A program made the translations under genes and the position numbers. This document shows, piece by piece, positions 215-10,733 of a stretch of 15,796 nt of DNA. The DNA comes from Candidatus Zixiibacteriota bacterium (GTDB lineage: Bacteria; RBG-13-66-14; B26-G2; WVWN01): positions 1 to 15,796 of the forward strand of contig JAUWLW010000060.1 of assembly GCA_030613505.1 (NCBI GenBank), in the 5' to 3' direction. The notes below the pieces were generated by a model. The model made no database searches. It had not been told where the DNA came from and saw nothing but the letters and a program-made list of their open reading frames with translations. Each line of letters starts with the position of its first letter. Within the stretch, counting starts at the first letter, position 1.

Positions 215-1351
215 CTATTCCAAACAGTGGATGTTCCGCTTGGCGGACATCTCCTTGAGTATGTCGGGCCACACCGTGACGCTGACCTCGCCCAGGTGAG
301 CCGTGCGCAGCAGGTACATGTACGTGCGCGACTGGCCTATGCCGCCGCCGATGCTCAAGGGGATCTCGTCGTTCATTATGGCCTGGTGGTAGGGCAGCTT
401 CAGGAAGTCCATCTGGCCCGTTATCTCGAGCTGCTTCACGAGCGTGTCCTTGGTTACGCGAATCCCCATGGAGGTCAGCTCGTGACGCCGCTTGGTCACC
501 GGGTTCCACACCAGGATGTCGCCGTTCAGGCCGTGCACGGGCCGGCCGTCGGCGGAGACCGTTTCCGTAATCCAATCGTCGTAGTCCGCGGCGCGCATCT
601 CGTGCGGGTAGCCGTCGTCGAGGGTCCAACCGATGCCGTATATGAAGACCGCGGGGTATTCCTGAATGATCGCCGTCTCGCGCTGCTTGCGCGGCATGTC
701 CGGATATTTGGCGAGAATATCCTCGGCGTGGATGAAGGTGAGCTCCTCCGGGATATCCGGGTATTTGTCGGTCTTGAGCTGCGGGAAATTCTCCTTGGCG
801 AACTCGCCGGCGCCGTAGATGACCTTCCATATCTTCTTCACGGTGTCGGTGAGGTATTCCAGCGTGCGTTCTTTTTCCGTTATGACTTTCTCCCAGTCCC
901 ACTGGTCGACGTAGCAGCTGTGGTCGTGGTCAAGGAAGTAGTCCTTGCGGACGGCCTTCATGTCGGTGCAGATCCCCTCGCCCACCTCGCAGCCGAACTC
1001 TTTGAGCGCGGGGCGCTTCCACTTCGTCGCCGCCTGGACGACCTGGGCGTCTATGGGGTTCTTATCGTAGTCGTTGGAGATGTGGAATTGGATGGGCGAG
1101 CGCGAGCCGTCGCGGTCGAGGGAGTCGTTGACGCCGCTGCGGACGTCGACGATCAAGGGCACCTGGACCATGAACAAGTTGAGTTCCTTGCACAGGTTCT
1201 CCTCGATGTAGCCCTTCACCGCGAAGAGGGCTTTCATCCGGTCCTTGGCGTTGAGCAGCGGCTCGTAGTCGTTGGGGAGGACCTTCTCCAACTCGTCGTA
1301 GCTGCCGATGCCGGGGCCCGCGAGGTCCGCTTTTTTATCCGCTTTCGCCAT
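215..1351 (-). CDS. asnA: Aspartate--ammonia ligase (asparagine synthetase A)
   Basis: The enzyme makes asparagine from aspartate, ammonia and ATP (releasing AMP and pyrophosphate) in the cytoplasm. It belongs to the class II aminoacyl-tRNA-synthetase-like fold. Family signatures are visible along the protein: VPLIVDVRSGVNDSLDR (about residues 64-80), a basic AATKWKRPALKEF segment (107-119), GEGICTDM (124-131), HSCYVDQWDWEKV (144-156) and, near the C-terminus, GGGIGQSRTYMYLL. At 378 residues it is longer than the E. coli enzyme (about 330), with extra length mainly in the middle. The ATG start is supported by an AGGAAGG ribosome-binding site six bases upstream. The gene stands alone: a terminator follows it, and the divergent AT-rich operon lies upstream. 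Identity is near certain from the motifs. Confidence 0.95.
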   Translation of the reverse strand: MAKADKKADLAGPGIGSYDELEKVLPNDYEPLLNAKDRMKALFAVKGYIEENLCKELNLFMVQVPLIVDVRSGVNDSLDRDGSRSPIQFHISNDYDKNPIDAQVVQAATKWKRPALKEFGCEVGEGICTDMKAVRKDYFLDHDHSCYVDQWDWEKVITEKERTLEYLTDTVKKIWKVIYGAGEFAKENFPQLKTDKYPDIPEELTFIHAEDILAKYPDMPRKQRETAIIQEYPAVFIYGIGWTLDDGYPHEMRAADYDDWITETVSADGRPVHGLNGDILVWNPVTKRRHELTSMGIRVTKDTLVKQLEITGQMDFLKLPYHQAIMNDEIPLSIGGGIGQSRTYMYLLRTAHLGEVSVTVWPDILKEMSAKRNIHCLE

Positions 1352-1411
1352 TACGTACCTTCCTTGTCGTTGAAATCAATGAGCGTATAGAAATTTTATT
1401 CGAAGGCCGGG

Positions 1412-1440
1412 ATTATAATATATTTCTAGGTTTTACTAAA
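1412..1440 (-). promoter_or_regulatory. Possible asnA promoter
   Basis: On the minus strand a perfect -10 box TATAAT (complement of 1412-1417) lies upstream of asnA. At a 17-base spacing there is only a weak -35 (TTTAGT, complement of 1435-1440). The predicted transcript would start near 1405, giving a leader of about 54 bases. The -10 is convincing but the -35 is poor, and the region is AT-rich, so chance matches are likely. Confidence 0.45.
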
Positions 1441-1497
1441 GCTTTTTCGTGACCGAAGACTCCGAGGTTGTATAAGGGGCCACGTAATATTACCTTA

Positions 1498-1525
1498 TTG
1501 ACATATCTAAATATTTTCGTATAGT
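1498..1525 (+). promoter_or_regulatory. Promoter of the DGQHR-HEPN operon
   Basis: A perfect -35 TTGACA (1498-1503) is followed after 16 bases by TATAGT (1520-1525), a good -10. Transcription would start near 1532, about 33 bases before the ATG. The signal is close to housekeeping sigma-70 consensus, so the operon looks constitutively expressible unless repressed. Surrounding AT richness lowers certainty a little. Confidence 0.72.
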
Positions 1526-1564
1526 ATATATTTGAAAAGGATTTTAACAGGTAAAGGAGTAATT

Positions 1565-2830
1565 ATGGTTACTAAACAAGCCCAAATAATAATACCTAAA
1601 GATTACGAAGTCCCGGACATCGTTTTAGAAATGGCAAAGGAGTTTTTAAAATTATTTAAGCCTTCTGAATCGGTAATCGGTATACCCTTGATTATATACT
1701 TGGACAAAAAAAGCGAAGCATTTTATATTATTTGCCACTTGAAAGGGAGTACAATAGTTTCTAAAACTGATTTAGACGCCGTTTTGGACCCCGAAGAGAG
1801 TGAGGATTATAAACTCAATAGGAATCTATATTTAAATACTTTTGCTTATAATAGAATGGAAAACGATGCCAAAGGGGGTCGTAGTTTCGAAGATATCGTA
1901 ATAGAGTATGACACTTCCTATAGGTCCGAAGTCCCTTTAAAAGTGTTCGGCGGTCAGCACAGGGTTAAAGCAATTGAAGCTGCTCTGAAGGATAAGGTTA
2001 ACGAGAAACACGGTTTAAGGGTATATCTAGATTTAACTACCGAACAAAAATTCGATATAGCCACCGCTAATAACACTTCGATCGCCGTATCAAACGATTT
2101 GCTGGACAGGATGCAGGAAGACCTTTTAGGCGCCGAGCTAAGGAATTGGTGTCAGCGGGTAGGTTTATTACGTGAAGGGGAGCATTTCGCTGATAGACGT
2201 AGCGCCGAAGGTATACCTACGGTTAGGATTGCCAGGACTATTGTAGTTAATTATTTTATTGGTCGCGGAGTTAAGGAAGATATATTGCATACCCCAGTCG
2301 TATGTAAATCAGGTCCGGAAGTAGATAAAAAATACATTGAAATAAGGGTTAATATAGATTGGGGAGACGCGCGTCTCGTACTAATGGGGAAAGAATTCGC
2401 CGAGTTACATAAATTACAAAGGGAACGAGTTCTTAACCGCGACAAAGATAATTACTTAGAATTCGCGAATAAAGCTGTACATCCATCTATTGCTGCTAGT
2501 TGGGCTTTTGCGGCCGGATATTTAGAAAGGGAAAGGGAGTCACAAAAAGCGCATTACGGTTTACGGAACGCGGTAGAAGCTCCTGCCGACCCGTTAAACG
2601 CTGCGGCTTTGCTAAAGGCTCGTTTAAAAGGCGCAGACCCCGATACTTATAGAGGTTTGGGTTCTCGTATTAACGCCGAAGAGCTTAGGAGAATGTTCGA
2701 AGTTTTTTCGTTACAGGCTACGAAGGCTAGTAAACGAGGTATCAATTTAAAACTAGCTAACGCTGCGATACAAACTTATCACGCTAAGAAAGCGAAATTC
2801 GATGCGGATAAAGCTGTGGAGAAAATTTAA
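1565..2830 (+). CDS. DGQHR/DndB-like domain protein
   Basis: This protein of 421 residues carries the motif GGQHR (residues 129-133) in the context LKVFGGQHRVKAIEAAL. It matches the DGQHR signature of DndB-related proteins; DndB is the regulator of DNA phosphorothioation genes. The motif also recalls the ParB/sulfiredoxin-fold box (GxHR/GERR followed by a helix). The segment after it (LDLTTEQKFDIATANN, 155-170) fits the strand-helix pattern seen after that box in DndB-like proteins. The C-terminal third is helical and Lys/Arg-rich, plausible for nucleic-acid contact. I chose the ATG at 1565 because AAAGGAG (1553-1559) sits five bases before it; an in-frame TTG at 1532 lacks such a site. The stop TAA abuts the next gene's ATG. 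No dnd sulfur-modification genes are nearby, so a Dnd regulatory role is not supported. Function unknown; DNA- or nucleotide-related activity is inferred. Confidence 0.78.
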   Translation: MVTKQAQIIIPKDYEVPDIVLEMAKEFLKLFKPSESVIGIPLIIYLDKKSEAFYIICHLKGSTIVSKTDLDAVLDPEESEDYKLNRNLYLNTFAYNRMENDAKGGRSFEDIVIEYDTSYRSEVPLKVFGGQHRVKAIEAALKDKVNEKHGLRVYLDLTTEQKFDIATANNTSIAVSNDLLDRMQEDLLGAELRNWCQRVGLLREGEHFADRRSAEGIPTVRIARTIVVNYFIGRGVKEDILHTPVVCKSGPEVDKKYIEIRVNIDWGDARLVLMGKEFAELHKLQRERVLNRDKDNYLEFANKAVHPSIAASWAFAAGYLERERESQKAHYGLRNAVEAPADPLNAAALLKARLKGADPDTYRGLGSRINAEELRRMFEVFSLQATKASKRGINLKLANAAIQTYHAKKAKFDADKAVEKI

Positions 2831-3358
2831 ATGTTTGAAGATTATCTAGAAGACGCTTATCATTTTGCTAAAGAAGCTAACCTTTTAACCGACGATAAAG
2901 AAGCGAACCGTTATTTCCGGGCTTCTATATTCTACAGTATTAGCGCAGTCGAAGCATTCGTTAATTTCGTAGGAGATACTTTTTTGAAGGGCGGTAAAAC
3001 GGAGCCTTATGAAGTTGCTTTTCTACTCGATAGGAAATTCTGGATTTCCGGAAATAAGTTCTTAATATTAGAAAAAATAGAGTTACATAGGTTAGAAGAT
3101 AAGTTGAAATATCTTATTAAAAAGTACGTTAGGGATTTCGACTTCGAAAAAGAAATTTGTTGGTCGAGATTTATAAAATTCAAACGCTTTAGGAACAGTT
3201 TAGTCCATCCATCTGAGGATACCGAGGGTATAGTGCGAAAAGAATACTTAAGACAAGTAACTGATGGTTTTCCCGCGGTTATAAGCATTATGGATACGAT
3301 ATTCCAAGGGGTTTTTGGTAAACCACTCCGCCGTAGTTTAGCCGACCTTACTATCTAA
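2831..3358 (+). CDS. HEPN-like domain protein, possible RNase
   Basis: The protein has 175 residues and looks mainly helical. Residues 121-126 read RNSLVH inside RFRNSLVHPSED, which fits the Rx4H motif (R121, H126) that forms the RNase active site in HEPN proteins. An earlier helix with RASIFYSISAVEAFVNF (30-46), including E41, matches the conserved first helix of several HEPN families. Many HEPN proteins are RNA-cutting toxins or effectors in toxin-antitoxin, abortive-infection and CRISPR systems. Its ATG follows the upstream TAA with no gap, so the two genes are almost certainly co-translated and their products likely act together. There is no adjacent MNT nucleotidyltransferase, the usual HEPN antitoxin partner. 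A non-catalytic helical role is possible; the HEPN assignment is by motif and pattern only. Confidence 0.7.
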   Translation: MFEDYLEDAYHFAKEANLLTDDKEANRYFRASIFYSISAVEAFVNFVGDTFLKGGKTEPYEVAFLLDRKFWISGNKFLILEKIELHRLEDKLKYLIKKYVRDFDFEKEICWSRFIKFKRFRNSLVHPSEDTEGIVRKEYLRQVTDGFPAVISIMDTIFQGVFGKPLRRSLADLTI

Positions 3359-3369
3359 TTTAACCGGTA

Positions 3370-3393
3370 AACCGGCTTTCGGTTAGGTTTTTT
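3370..3393 (+). terminator. Terminator of the DGQHR-HEPN operon
   Basis: A short hairpin, AACCG (3370-3374), loop GCTTT, CGGTT (3380-3384), is followed by six T at 3388-3393 and further T-rich sequence. It starts 12 bases after the HEPN gene stop. An alternative six-pair stem using TAACCG at 3361-3366 is possible. The stem is short but position and T run fit an intrinsic terminator. Confidence 0.65.
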
Positions 3394-3400
3394 CTTTTCT

Positions 3401-3450
3401 TAACGATCCGCGATTCACGCGTTAACGAGTTACGTTCAATCGGATCGTTA
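3401..3450. repeat. 10-bp perfect inverted repeat at island edge
   Basis: TAACGATCCG (3401-3410) and its exact reverse complement CGGATCGTTA (3441-3450) flank a 30-base spacer. The spacer contains an 8-bp palindrome, CGTTAACG (3420-3427), nearly at its centre. The repeat lies between the end of the AT-rich operon and the convergent toroid gene. It is not followed by a clear T run on the minus strand and only weakly on the plus strand, so it is not an obvious terminator. It could be a protein-binding or recombination site, or a relic of insertion. Confidence 0.7.
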
Positions 3451-3468
3451 TATTTGTGTTTCGCCGCC

Positions 3469-4305
3469 TCAGTTTAGATCGAGGCGGTATCTCGCTAGCA
3501 GCGCGACAACGGCCGTAGTCCGGTCCGGGTGCGATTCGTCGCCCGCGAAGTAGGGCCAGCCGCCGTCGTCGTTCTGCGTCTCGGCCAGAAGCTTCAAACA
3601 TTCCTGGACGTCGCCGTCGGCGGCGCGCCGGCCCAGCCCCAGGAACGCCGGCAGCGGGTTCTCGATAGGATTGCGCCAACCGTCTTTCTGCCGGACGAGC
3701 GCGCCGGCCAGGCCGGCGAAGACGTCGTGGTTGGCGCTTACGCCCGCGGCGAGCAGACCTTGTACGACGCCCGGTATCGTCCACAGATCCGTCCGGTCGG
3801 GATAGCCTTCGGCAACTTGCCCCGGCCACCCGCCGTCCTTGTTGCGCGCCCGCAACAGGAAATTGCGGGCGAGGGTAATATTATTATCGAAACCGCCTAC
3901 GGCCGCGAGCGCCACCATCGCCTCGCCCGTTATCCACGTAACCGGGTTCTCGGCCGAGTACCAATCCCACTCGGGTTTTAACGTCTCGGCCAACGCGGCG
4001 TTCTCGCTGAAGCCGCCGTCGTCGCGCTGCATGGAGGCGAGCCACGCCCCCCCTTTTTTCGCGGCCTTACCCTCGCCGGCGCGCGCGAGTAATTCGACCC
4101 TCCAGGAGGTAACGGGGACGCTCCCCGGTTCCCCCTTCGGGCGCGAGCCCGCGAAGGAGCCGTCGTCGTTTTGGGAACCGGTTATTTCGGCGACGAGTTC
4201 GGCTTTGGCGCGCGGAACGTCGACGCCGGCGAGGGCGAGTTCGAGGTGGTGATGAGCCTTCCCGGCCGAGATTACGTAATCGGAGGCTTTCTGAAGAGAT
4301 GCCAT
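3469..4305 (-). CDS. Prenyltransferase/terpene-cyclase-like alpha/alpha-toroid repeat protein
   Basis: The protein has 278 residues and repeats resembling the QW motif of the terpenoid-cyclase/prenyltransferase toroid fold: QNDDGSF (45-51), QRDDGGF (93-99), NKDGGW (155-160), QKDGW (206-210) and QNDDGGW (244-250). Each is preceded by a helix, as expected for a barrel of paired helices. I see no DxDDTA catalytic motif of squalene-hopene cyclases, and the length is under half that of those enzymes, so cyclase activity is unlikely. No signal peptide is visible, so the protein is probably cytoplasmic. It is the last gene of the coiled-coil/cyclase operon, 55 bases after the preceding stop. A small hairpin (3464-3470 with 3481-3487) overlaps its stop codon. 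Function unknown; a binding or scaffold role is possible. Confidence 0.75.
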   Translation of the reverse strand: MASLQKASDYVISAGKAHHHLELALAGVDVPRAKAELVAEITGSQNDDGSFAGSRPKGEPGSVPVTSWRVELLARAGEGKAAKKGGAWLASMQRDDGGFSENAALAETLKPEWDWYSAENPVTWITGEAMVALAAVGGFDNNITLARNFLLRARNKDGGWPGQVAEGYPDRTDLWTIPGVVQGLLAAGVSANHDVFAGLAGALVRQKDGWRNPIENPLPAFLGLGRRAADGDVQECLKLLAETQNDDGGWPYFAGDESHPDRTTAVVALLARYRLDLN

Positions 4306-7945: not shown

Positions 7946-9043
7946 CTACGCCATGCTTCGGGCGAGGCGGTGGATCTGCGGGAGGAGTTCGGCGACGGCG
8001 CGTACGGCGACGGGTTCCACGACGACCTGTCCGATATCGCGCGGCAAGGCCACGTAGATTTCGCCGCCGGCCGTCGGCTTTCCGGCGACCAGAGCCTCGA
8101 GCGTTTTGTCCAGATTCAAGGTGGGTAAATAAGTGGGGAGGTTGAAGCGCCGCAAAAGCGCCGCGACGCGGATGACGGCCTCGGTTGCGATTTCCCCTCG
8201 TAGCTCCGCGAGGAGGCCGGTGTATACCAGGCCCACGGCAAGCGCTTCGCCGTGGCTGAGGGCGAACCGACTCGCGCTCTCGAAGGCGCGGCCCAGCGTG
8301 CGCCCCAGGTTGAGGAGATGACTCTCACCCCGTTCGCGTTCGCTCGAGGCCAGCACCGAGGCTTTGTACCGCAAACCCCTTTCGACGACGGCATCCAATT
8401 CGGCGCCGGCGCGCATGACCAACGGCGCGTTGTCTTCGAGGTACGCGAAGGCTTCCTCGCCGCCGAGTACGGCGTATTTTACCGCTTCGGCGACGCCGGC
8501 GGAGAGATGCTTGGCCGGCAGCGTGGCCAGCAGCTCGCCGTCTACTATCACCGCCGTCGGTTGGTGGAAGGTGCCGACCTGGTTTTTAAGGCCGTCGACG
8601 TCGACGCCTACGTCGCCGCCCAAGCACAGGTCGATCTGAGCCAAGAGCGTCGTGGGGACCACGGCCCAGGGTACGCCGCTTTTGAAAGTGGCCGCGGCGA
8701 AGCCGGCGACGTCGCACACGCTCCCGCCTCCCAGCGCTACCACGACGTCCGACCGGCTGACCACCACGGCGGCGAACTCCCGATACAAGTCGGCGAGTTG
8801 GGCGAAGTTTTTAGCCTCGTCGCCCGCGGCGACGGTGGCGGACCTGACCGCGAAACCCGCGCGCTTGAGCGCGGGGGCGAGCGCTTTGAGGTACAGCGGC
8901 TTAACGTGTTCATCCGTGACGACGACGGCCCGGCGGGCGTCGGGCGCCGCGGCGCGGAGGATGTTGCCTGCGCGCGCGAGGGCGCCGCGCTCGCCGTGGG
9001 CGCGGTAGGTCGCGCCTCCATATTTGACCTCTATATCGAACAT
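7946..9043 (-). CDS. AroB-like sugar-phosphate cyclase homologue with altered active site
   Basis: The 365-residue protein aligns by eye with 3-dehydroquinate synthase along its length: GGGSVCDVAGFAAATF (105-120), VPTTLLAQID (129-138), GTFHQPTAVIVD (157-168), AGVAEAVKYAVL (182-193), LLNLGRTLGRAFE (243-255), LSHGEALAVGL (262-272). Typical AroB turns DAHP into 3-dehydroquinate, step two of the shikimate pathway. Here several usually invariant residues differ: the zinc ligand His of LGHT is R248, the next His (GHA) is R252, the Lys of GGK is D144, and the Arg four before the LLN Asn is S241. Other active-site residues remain (D138, K153, N154, E186, K189, H264). Loss of one zinc ligand makes normal activity doubtful. 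It may be a pseudoenzyme or carry out other chemistry, with a true AroB elsewhere. The start has GGAAAG upstream. I withhold the symbol aroB. Confidence 0.82.
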   Translation of the reverse strand: MFDIEVKYGGATYRAHGERGALARAGNILRAAAPDARRAVVVTDEHVKPLYLKALAPALKRAGFAVRSATVAAGDEAKNFAQLADLYREFAAVVVSRSDVVVALGGGSVCDVAGFAAATFKSGVPWAVVPTTLLAQIDLCLGGDVGVDVDGLKNQVGTFHQPTAVIVDGELLATLPAKHLSAGVAEAVKYAVLGGEEAFAYLEDNAPLVMRAGAELDAVVERGLRYKASVLASSERERGESHLLNLGRTLGRAFESASRFALSHGEALAVGLVYTGLLAELRGEIATEAVIRVAALLRRFNLPTYLPTLNLDKTLEALVAGKPTAGGEIYVALPRDIGQVVVEPVAVRAVAELLPQIHRLARSMA

Positions 9044-9059
9044 TTATCTTTCCAGCGTG

Positions 9060-9088
9060 AAAATACCACATCGGTTTCCCCGGGGCAA
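9060..9088 (-). promoter_or_regulatory. Possible promoter of the AroB-like gene
   Basis: On the minus strand, TTGCCC (complement of 9083-9088), a 17-base spacer and TATTTT (complement of 9060-9065) form a plausible sigma-70 promoter. Transcription would start near 9053, right at the GGAAAG ribosome-binding site (complement of 9048-9053), giving an extremely short leader of about 10 bases. It lies back to back with the promoter of the plus-strand gene within the same 88-base gap. Confidence 0.5.
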
Positions 9089-9095
9089 GATATTC

Positions 9096-9124
9096 TTGAC
9101 CTCGCCGAGTCGAAGCCCTATAAT
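9096..9124 (+). promoter_or_regulatory. Promoter of the NAD(P)HX repair gene
   Basis: TTGACC (9096-9101), a spacer of exactly 17 bases and a perfect TATAAT (9119-9124). Transcription would begin around 9131, one base before the proposed GTG start at 9132, so the mRNA may be leaderless. Confidence 0.8.
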
Positions 9125-9131
9125 TAATTTA

Positions 9132-10733
9132 GTGAAAGTTGTGACGCCCCTGCAGATGCGCGACGTCGACCGTCGCGCCGTGGACGGATTCGGCGTCCCG
9201 TCGTCCGTCTTGATGGACCGGGCGGGTGCGGCTGCGGCCGCGGTCGCGCTCGAGCTCGCGGAAGGGGGCCGCGCGGTAGTCGCAGCCGGCCCGGGCAATA
9301 ACGGCGGCGACGGTTTCGTGGCGGCCAGGTATTTATCCGATGCCGGCTTCGACGTTGCCGTATACTTGCTCGGGCGGGCGGGCCGCCTGAAGGGCGACGC
9401 GGCCGCGAATTGCAAGTTGTTCGTTAATTGCGGCGGCCGGCTGGAGGAGTACGAGCGTCGTCGCTTCGGCCGGGACGTCGCCCGGGCGGGCGTCGCCTTG
9501 GATGCCATGCTGGGGACCGGCAGCCGCGGCGGCTTGACGGGCGCGTTTGCCGAGGCGGCGACGGCGTTGTGCCGAGCCGGCGGGCCGGTAGTCGCGGTCG
9601 ACGTGCCCTCCGGCGTCGACGCCGCTACGGGCGCGGTGCCGGGCGAGGCCGTAGTTGCTGACGCCACGGTCACCTTCGGATTGCCCAAGATCGGCCTTCT
9701 ACAATACCCCGGGCGCGGTTACGCCGGCGAGGTCCACGTGGCCGACGTCGGCTATCCCGGCGCCGCCGTCGACGAGTTGACTTTCGAACCTTCGGGCGAA
9801 GCGCCGGGCTACGTCGCGCGGATACCGGCGGTAGATGAGGTCGCGGTGTTGCTGCCTCCCCGGCCGTTGAATTTGCATAAGGGCGCCGCCGGCCGGGCGT
9901 ACATATTGGCCGGTTCGCGCGGCATGAGCGGCGCCGCGGCGCTGGCGGCGCAGGCTTGTTTGCGGGCCGGCGCCGGTTTGGTGGAAGTGGGCCTGCCGGC
10001 CGAGCTCGACGTTATCTTCAGCGCGGCGACGTTGGAATGTCTGTCGCACCCGCTGCCGGAGACGCCGGAGGGCGCGCTCGCCGCCGAAGCCGCGCCGGCG
10101 GTCGCCGAGAAGCTTGCCGCGGCCGACGCCGCCGCTATCGGCCCGGGCCTGGGCCGCGCCGAGGCGACCGGCGATTTACTGAGCGAAGTGACGCGCCGCG
10201 TGAAGTGCCCGGTCGTAGTCGACGCCGACGGCCTATTCCTCCTCGGCCTGGACGGGCTGACGCGGCGGCGGCTGCGCGGCGTGTTGACGCCTCACCCGGG
10301 CGAGATGGCGCAGCTCTTCGGCGTGAGCGCGGGCGACGTGCAGCGCGACCGGCCGCGGTGGGCGCGCGAGCTTGCGGAGCAAACGGGTATGGCGGTCATT
10401 TTAAAGGGCTACCTGAGCGTAATCGCCGCGCCGGGCGAGGAGACCTGGCTCAACCCGACCGGGAACCCGGGCCTGGCCAGCGGCGGCAGCGGCGACGTCT
10501 TGACGGGGGTCGTGCTCGCGCTGCTCGCGGGGGGCTCGTCGCCCGCGGCGGCGGCGCGCGCCGGCGCGTACGTCCACGGCCTTGCCGCCGACGTAGCCGC
10601 GGAGGCTTCGGGGGAGCGGTCGTTGGTGGCGGGCGACGTTCTGGAGGCGCTGCCGGCGGCTATAAAAGTGATAGAGGAAGGCCCGGGCGAAGGCGACCCG
10701 GGTTGGGATAATCTATTCGCGTCGTACGGCTAG
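9132..10733 (+). CDS. nnr: Bifunctional NAD(P)H-hydrate epimerase / ADP-dependent NAD(P)HX dehydratase
   Basis: The protein repairs hydrated NAD(P)H: the N-terminal epimerase (YjeF_N) interconverts R- and S-NAD(P)HX, and the C-terminal ribokinase-fold dehydratase (YjeF_C) restores NAD(P)H using ADP. Epimerase marks are GPGNNGGDGFVAARYL (53-68), DAMLGTG (124-130) and VDVPSGVDAATG (156-167). Dehydratase marks are HKGAAGRAYILAGS (249-262), IGPGLG (336-341), VVVDADGL (361-368), LTPHPGEM (385-392) and the catalytic GGSGDVLTG (451-459, D455). At 533 residues it has the normal size of the fused enzyme. I chose GTG at 9132 because it gives the family-typical beginning MKVVTPLQMRDVDRRA; the ATG at 9024 would run through the promoter and overlap the divergent gene. 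No ribosome-binding site precedes the GTG, consistent with leaderless translation. Confidence 0.93.
   Translation: MKVVTPLQMRDVDRRAVDGFGVPSSVLMDRAGAAAAAVALELAEGGRAVVAAGPGNNGGDGFVAARYLSDAGFDVAVYLLGRAGRLKGDAAANCKLFVNCGGRLEEYERRRFGRDVARAGVALDAMLGTGSRGGLTGAFAEAATALCRAGGPVVAVDVPSGVDAATGAVPGEAVVADATVTFGLPKIGLLQYPGRGYAGEVHVADVGYPGAAVDELTFEPSGEAPGYVARIPAVDEVAVLLPPRPLNLHKGAAGRAYILAGSRGMSGAAALAAQACLRAGAGLVEVGLPAELDVIFSAATLECLSHPLPETPEGALAAEAAPAVAEKLAAADAAAIGPGLGRAEATGDLLSEVTRRVKCPVVVDADGLFLLGLDGLTRRRLRGVLTPHPGEMAQLFGVSAGDVQRDRPRWARELAEQTGMAVILKGYLSVIAAPGEETWLNPTGNPGLASGGSGDVLTGVVLALLAGGSSPAAAARAGAYVHGLAADVAAEASGERSLVAGDVLEALPAAIKVIEEGPGEGDPGWDNLFASYG

Follow-up and report, generated by a model that had tools for sequence, protein, structure and literature searches.

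A foreign two-gene cassette coding for putative remote relatives of DGQHR/DndB and RiboL-PSP-type HEPN proteins: a candidate conflict module with a PD-T4-2-like layout

Two abutting genes of the window (as the whole analyzed stretch of 15,796 nucleotides is called here) raise the question of whether they form a conflict system and, if so, whether its composition is new. A first-pass annotation, made from the sequence alone, had described a GGQHR protein of 421 residues and a 175-residue protein with an Rx4H motif (R121, H126), the TAA of the first abutting the ATG of the second, and the open reading frames are exactly so (Table 1). It had also proposed that a protein of the ParB/sulfiredoxin (Srx) fold may control a HEPN RNase in a conflict system. 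This is still the best available reading; both domains survive weakly, and from them we infer the function.

Table 1. Coordinates of the features of the two-gene locus in the window.
Feature	Position	Strand	Remarks
Promoter-like site, sigma-70 type, TTGACA-N16-TATAGT	1498..1525	+	Consensus scan, 11/12 matches
Gene A	1565..2830	+	421 aa; ATG 1565, TAA 2830; remote DGQHR/DndB relative; probable sensor/regulator
GGQHR codons of gene A	1949..1963	+	Residues 129-133; V127-F128 directly before; aligns to DGQHR in hmmsearch
Gene B	2831..3358	+	175 aa; ATG 2831, TAA 3358; putative RiboL-PSP-type HEPN; probable RNase effector
R121-N-S-L-V-H126 codons of gene B	3191..3208	+	Rx4H, putative RNase active site
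Intrinsic-terminator-like hairpin, then T-rich tract	3370..3384	+	Consensus scan
Perfect 10-nt inverted repeat TAACGATCCG/CGGATCGTTA	3401..3450	.	30 nt between the arms; single copy in genome

The genes had been called fused, under one strong promoter and one terminator. With 0 nt between them they abut and encode separate polypeptides, and the two expression signals are in the right positions. Nevertheless, the counts given by the promoter and terminator scans of the region were not above the shuffled expectation (7 found vs. 4.6 expected and 2 vs. 2.6, respectively). Therefore, it is the position of these signals and not their number which argues for a promoter 5' of gene A and a terminator 3' of gene B. 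A ribosome-binding site (AGGAG) is located just 5' of the ATG of gene A, while the program-made ORF list starts this gene upstream, at TTG 1532. No Rfam families were found in positions 1340-3600. The inverted repeat that follows the genes is possibly a shared or reverse-side terminator, or the edge of the cassette; as an integron attC site it was rejected, since by eye its ends depart from the core-site consensus and the genome has no further copy.

The profile matches of gene A were below the cut-offs, both for DGQHR TIGR03187 (E = 0.017, 14.9 bits vs. a cut-off of 58.85) and for DndB PF14072 (E = 0.1, 12.1 bits vs. 29.1). For residues 125-188, hhalign gave an alignment with 25 DGQHR proteins at P = 5e-4, the aligned segment being F-GGQHR-VKAI ... 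IATAN-NTS-AVS; the score was 35.1, the best of 40 shuffles reached 26.8, and the other ORFs of the window that were tested all scored lower. The pentapeptide, FxxxN and QR are among the features of the DGQHR domain (PMC4619093). In gene A, the pentapeptide is GGQHR, with G replacing the D of the nearly invariant DGQHR; I165-A-T-A-N169 stands at the expected FxxxN position (hhalign) as IxxxN; and for QR there is just an NR (96-97) upstream, where the alignment is not established. Given the sub-cut-off matches and the degenerate diagnostic motifs, gene A would be a very remote DGQHR relative short of formal membership. Its likeness to the DndB/DGQHR proteins (PF14072, TIGR03187) lies in the core, which aligns at the pentapeptide and the following IxxxN, whereas the D to G change and the scores set it apart. 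The F-G-G-Q-H-R of gene A is also near the sulfiredoxin signature F-(G/S)-G-C-H-R (PMC4619093), but the catalytic Cys is Gln in gene A and the Pfam scan gave no Srx family match. Neither GmrSD_N/DUF262 (PF03235) nor a nuclease domain was recognized in gene A by the same scan, its motif is not (I/V)DGQQR, and an alignment of 11 DUF262 partners did not match it (hhalign P = 0.15, outside the motif). Its fold would be that of the ParB/Srx superfamily, in the DGQHR (DndB-like) branch. In the DGQQR motif of DndI, mutation of the arginine abolished ATP hydrolysis (PMC11662687), and the equivalent arginine is retained in the GGQHR of gene A. It may be speculated that gene A binds an NTP without hydrolyzing it, provided that hydrolysis needs the aspartate of the motif.

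The best Pfam match of gene B was PF18735 (RiboL-PSP-HEPN), with E = 6e-4 and 20.2 bits, which is below the cut-off of 28.4; it covers residues 11-155 and positions 15-186 of the 191 of the profile. When this family was searched in 386 genomes, the genome of the window was one of 31 with a match at E<=0.001. The hhalign score against HEPN was 30.1, with a shuffle maximum of 23.5 and one unrelated ORF of the window at 26.7. In addition, R121-N122-S-L-V-H126 fits Rx4-6H, the proposed HEPN RNase site (PMC3710099), with a polar residue after R, and resembles the RNSIAH, RNDIAH and RNEFAH of other loci (L003, L010, and L009, respectively). Gene B would thus be, weakly but detectably, a remote relative of the RiboL-PSP-type HEPN proteins and not a formal family member, and an RNase activity can be predicted for it with good reason from the PF18735 match and the Rx4-6H motif. 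In short, the DGQHR and HEPN calls of the first-pass annotation withstood shuffling and are weak, and the profile searches that it had suggested gave DGQHR/DndB and HEPN matches of which none exceeds its cut-off. The AlphaFold predictions of the single proteins, which it had also suggested, were too poor to use: the models, built from single sequences, had a mean pLDDT of 52 and 39, the former for gene B. In this low-confidence, all-helical model of gene B, the motif lies where helix 109-123 ends and a loop starts, an arrangement like that of HEPN domains; Foldseek found no significant fold match to the model.

The annotation had known of no described system with exactly this composition; that the composition is undescribed is not supported. 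Operons of ParB with RiboL-PSP-HEPN were reported in 2013 (PMC3710099), and the same superfamilies meet in PD-T4-2 and in 11 of 30 PF18735 loci of other genomes. In these 11 loci a DUF262-like (GmrSD_N) gene is directly upstream of the HEPN gene, with a spacing of -20 to +18 nt. It was recognized by its DGxQR-type motif, and Pfam confirmed three of these genes; two further loci (L002, L008) carry, by eye, DUF262-like fragments at the locus end beside the HEPN gene. When three DUF262-HEPN pairs were scanned with PADLOC, every upstream gene matched both NsnA and PD-T4-2_A; among the three HEPN genes, that of L009 alone matched PD-T4-2_B. Neither gene A nor gene B matched any PADLOC model, PD-T4-2_A/B included, at E<=1. 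PD-T4-2 came out of a functional selection in E. coli. Its protection of the native strain against T4 is established by experiment: T4 plaquing rises strongly when it is deleted from that strain (PMC9519451); its domains, according to a review, are DUF262 and a PF18735 HEPN (PMC10952713). Profile similarity and a predicted ParB/Srx fold link the DUF262 of GmrS to DGQHR (PMC4619093), and both DUF262 and DGQHR/DndB are members of a single ParB/Srx superfamily (PMC4619093, PMC11662687). The window pair and PD-T4-2 share two genes at near-zero spacing, a ParB-superfamily gene first and a PF18735-type HEPN gene second, but the first protein of PD-T4-2 is a DUF262 protein while gene A is DGQHR-like, and the window proteins are without PADLOC matches. 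Likewise, Table 1 of Anantharaman et al. (2013) lists RiboL-PSP-HEPN with "operon with ParB" (PMC3710099), i.e., the HEPN family and the partner superfamily of the window pair, although the ParB subtype is unstated and a DGQHR partner is not named in that row; the same survey reports MAE_28990 as operonic with ParB nuclease and DNA methylase genes (PMC3710099). The HEPN-MNT and HEPN-ParA dyads (PMC3710099) are also two-gene HEPN dyads with a regulator-like partner, but gene A is neither MNT nor ParA (Pfam scan).

Novelty is hence limited to the DGQHR/GGQHR-type partner in the place of DUF262, and its recurrence was not found. The proposed neighborhood survey did show that the order of a ParB-superfamily gene and a HEPN gene recurs, with DUF262; a second DGQHR-HEPN pair was not found in the collections searched. 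At the TIGR03187 loci of 25 genomes no protein was close to gene A and no neighbor was a HEPN gene (phmmer with the window HEPN), and the PF14072 search matched largely the same genomes. No homologues of gene A were found in 98 and 386 whole genomes, where the sub-threshold matches looked chance-like, nor by tblastn in plasmids and phages, nor in viral contigs (IMG/VR) with four pattern designs. Two pattern scans of GTDB (about 85,000 genomes) gave 63 and 246 candidate stretches, none of them confirmed; pattern scans reach those relatives that share short peptides and do not prove absence. Some patterns (A1, A3, A4) were chosen from the window protein aligned with made-up variants, which constitute no evidence. 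Among the inspected sub-threshold matches of the whole genomes, that in L066 lies in an aldo-keto-reductase-like gene. Plain protein searches with gene B gave no relatives in plasmids, phages and viral contigs and only weak short matches in a set of 327 genomes, and a PDB sequence search gave no match. Since no recurrence was found, the functional linkage of both genes rests on their abutment, on the expression signals and the foreign composition that they share, and on the analogous order in the DUF262-HEPN loci.

Some PF18735 HEPN genes have other types of partner, as judged by reading the sequences. In L023 (1489-2157 and 2150-3382, -) the RiboL-PSP-HEPN gene has an 8-nt overlap with an apparent RecF/OLD-like ATPase gene, and in L006 (152-1441 and 1468-2007, +) it adjoins a HerA/FtsK-like ATPase gene. 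In L027 (71-1102 and 1450-2223, -) a HEPN gene that weakly resembles PF18735 is near a SIR2-like-looking gene, possibly another defense context.

The cassette is clearly foreign, on the contrast in GC3 and its absence from the junction of congeners. The G+C content drops from about 0.6 to 0.34-0.43 over both genes, whose own values are 0.37-0.41, and GC3 is 0.37 in gene A and 0.35 in gene B vs. 0.79-0.89 in seven other genes of the window. In a Pfam profile scan, the nearest flanking genes encode AsnA, a prenyltransferase-toroid-like protein and a cyclase-like protein. In two congeners, the toroid-like flanking gene (79 and 72% identical) stands between gatE and gatD, named by Pfam in congener G003, and the pair is absent at the matching junction. 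The pair was thus either gained by the lineage of the window or lost from the congeners, and its composition would favor gain. At the same junction, G003 has a radical SAM/SPASM gene where the cassette would be (L077 6152-7579, +); with different inserts at one junction, insertions may have occurred repeatedly between the toroid-like gene and gatD. The corresponding places in the window are 215-1351 (-) and 3469-4305 (-), where the congeners (L076, L077) carry gatE, the toroid-like gene and gatD, and where an AsnA (aspartate-ammonia ligase) gene occupies the site in the genome of the window. This genome, which is 93% complete so that absence is uncertain, gave no gatD match, and its sole GatB/E-type match is partial (33%) and elsewhere. 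AsnA in place of gatD/gatE possibly reflects a switch in Asn/Gln supply for tRNA. Among the profile-scanned flanking genes of the window no defense genes were recognized. The annotation had pointed out that neither an MNT antitoxin nor Dnd modification genes are nearby, and no dnd genes were recognized among the scanned genes of the window; in particular, dndC/D/E of the phosphorothioation locus were not among the nearest genes of gene A.

Taken together, the HEPN match, the DGQHR-core alignment, the layout of the PF18735 loci, the defense by PD-T4-2, the foreign G+C content and the absence of the cassette from the junction in the congeners point to a horizontally acquired two-gene conflict module with a PD-T4-2-like layout, in which gene A would sense and restrain and gene B would be an RNase effector released on infection; we give this reading a probability of roughly 0.55. 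Gene A would most likely bind nucleotide and/or DNA and keep gene B in check. An infection-linked change (in nucleotide level or DNA modification, or the loss of gene A) would free gene B, which would cut RNA through the R121/N122/H126 site, and this would halt the cell (abortive infection), or else gene B would act as a toxin with gene A as antitoxin. That the two proteins are active and interact, and that the module serves in defense, is presumed. Against this reading count the sub-cut-off domain matches, the lack of PADLOC matches, the degenerate DGQHR signature, the poor models, the lack of a second pair and the lack of recognized defense genes among the scanned flanking genes. Most likely the pair belongs to a known kind of defense operon, as a divergent variant, and does not form a new category.

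A close rival is a plain type II toxin-antitoxin pair, which differs from the sensor/RNase module mainly in the release trigger: gene A would be antitoxin and autorepressor of the HEPN toxin, and the pair would be kept by addiction and not by selection for phage defense. Abutting genes in a foreign cassette, with the regulator first, the HEPN gene second and one promoter and terminator, suit this explanation, as do the reading of MNT-HEPN and ParA-HEPN dyads as toxin-antitoxin systems (PMC3710099) and the description of DndB as a transcriptional regulator (PMC10853773). Nevertheless, 421 aa are long for a typical antitoxin, the characterized members of the superfamily hydrolyze NTP or nick DNA in defense, and the nearest layout is that of a phage-defense system, so that we regard the explanation as possible and clearly less probable than the conflict module. 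Tentatively, and with similar reserve, the pair may represent an undescribed ParB/Srx-HEPN branch, in which the GGQHR protein would have replaced DUF262 as a non-hydrolyzing sensor of nucleotide or modification directly gating the HEPN RNase.

It is improbable that gene A is the effector (nucleotidase or DNA nickase) and that gene B is an RNase in an accessory or backup role. Nucleotide degradation and DNA nicking are both known from ParB/Srx conflict proteins (PMC10853773, PMC12839542), but with glycine in the place of the acidic first residue of DGQHR a catalysis like that of DGQQR NTPases is doubtful in gene A, in which no nuclease domain is recognized. Equally poor is the chance that the domain matches are spurious and that the genes are unrelated orphans of a mobile or viral remnant under a common promoter, as could be argued from scores all below curated cut-offs and from a gene A without homologues in any collection searched, because two weak matches, both above their shuffled controls, are unlikely to coincide in a known operon order at the expected spacing.

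If the conflict module is real, RiboL-PSP HEPN effectors can have partners from different branches of the ParB/Srx superfamily, whose role as sensor or gatekeeper would be conserved while the subtype changes, and the biochemistry of DndB and SspE could serve to interpret the DUF262 half of PD-T4-2. It must be noted that both genes are invisible to PADLOC, a warning that defense-gene catalogues miss divergent pairs. Elsewhere in the window, a long ORF (9024-10733, +) reads like a putative fused NAD(P)H-hydrate epimerase/dehydratase, and a putative 3-dehydroquinate-synthase-like ORF (7946-9043, -) is divergent from it and slightly overlaps it.
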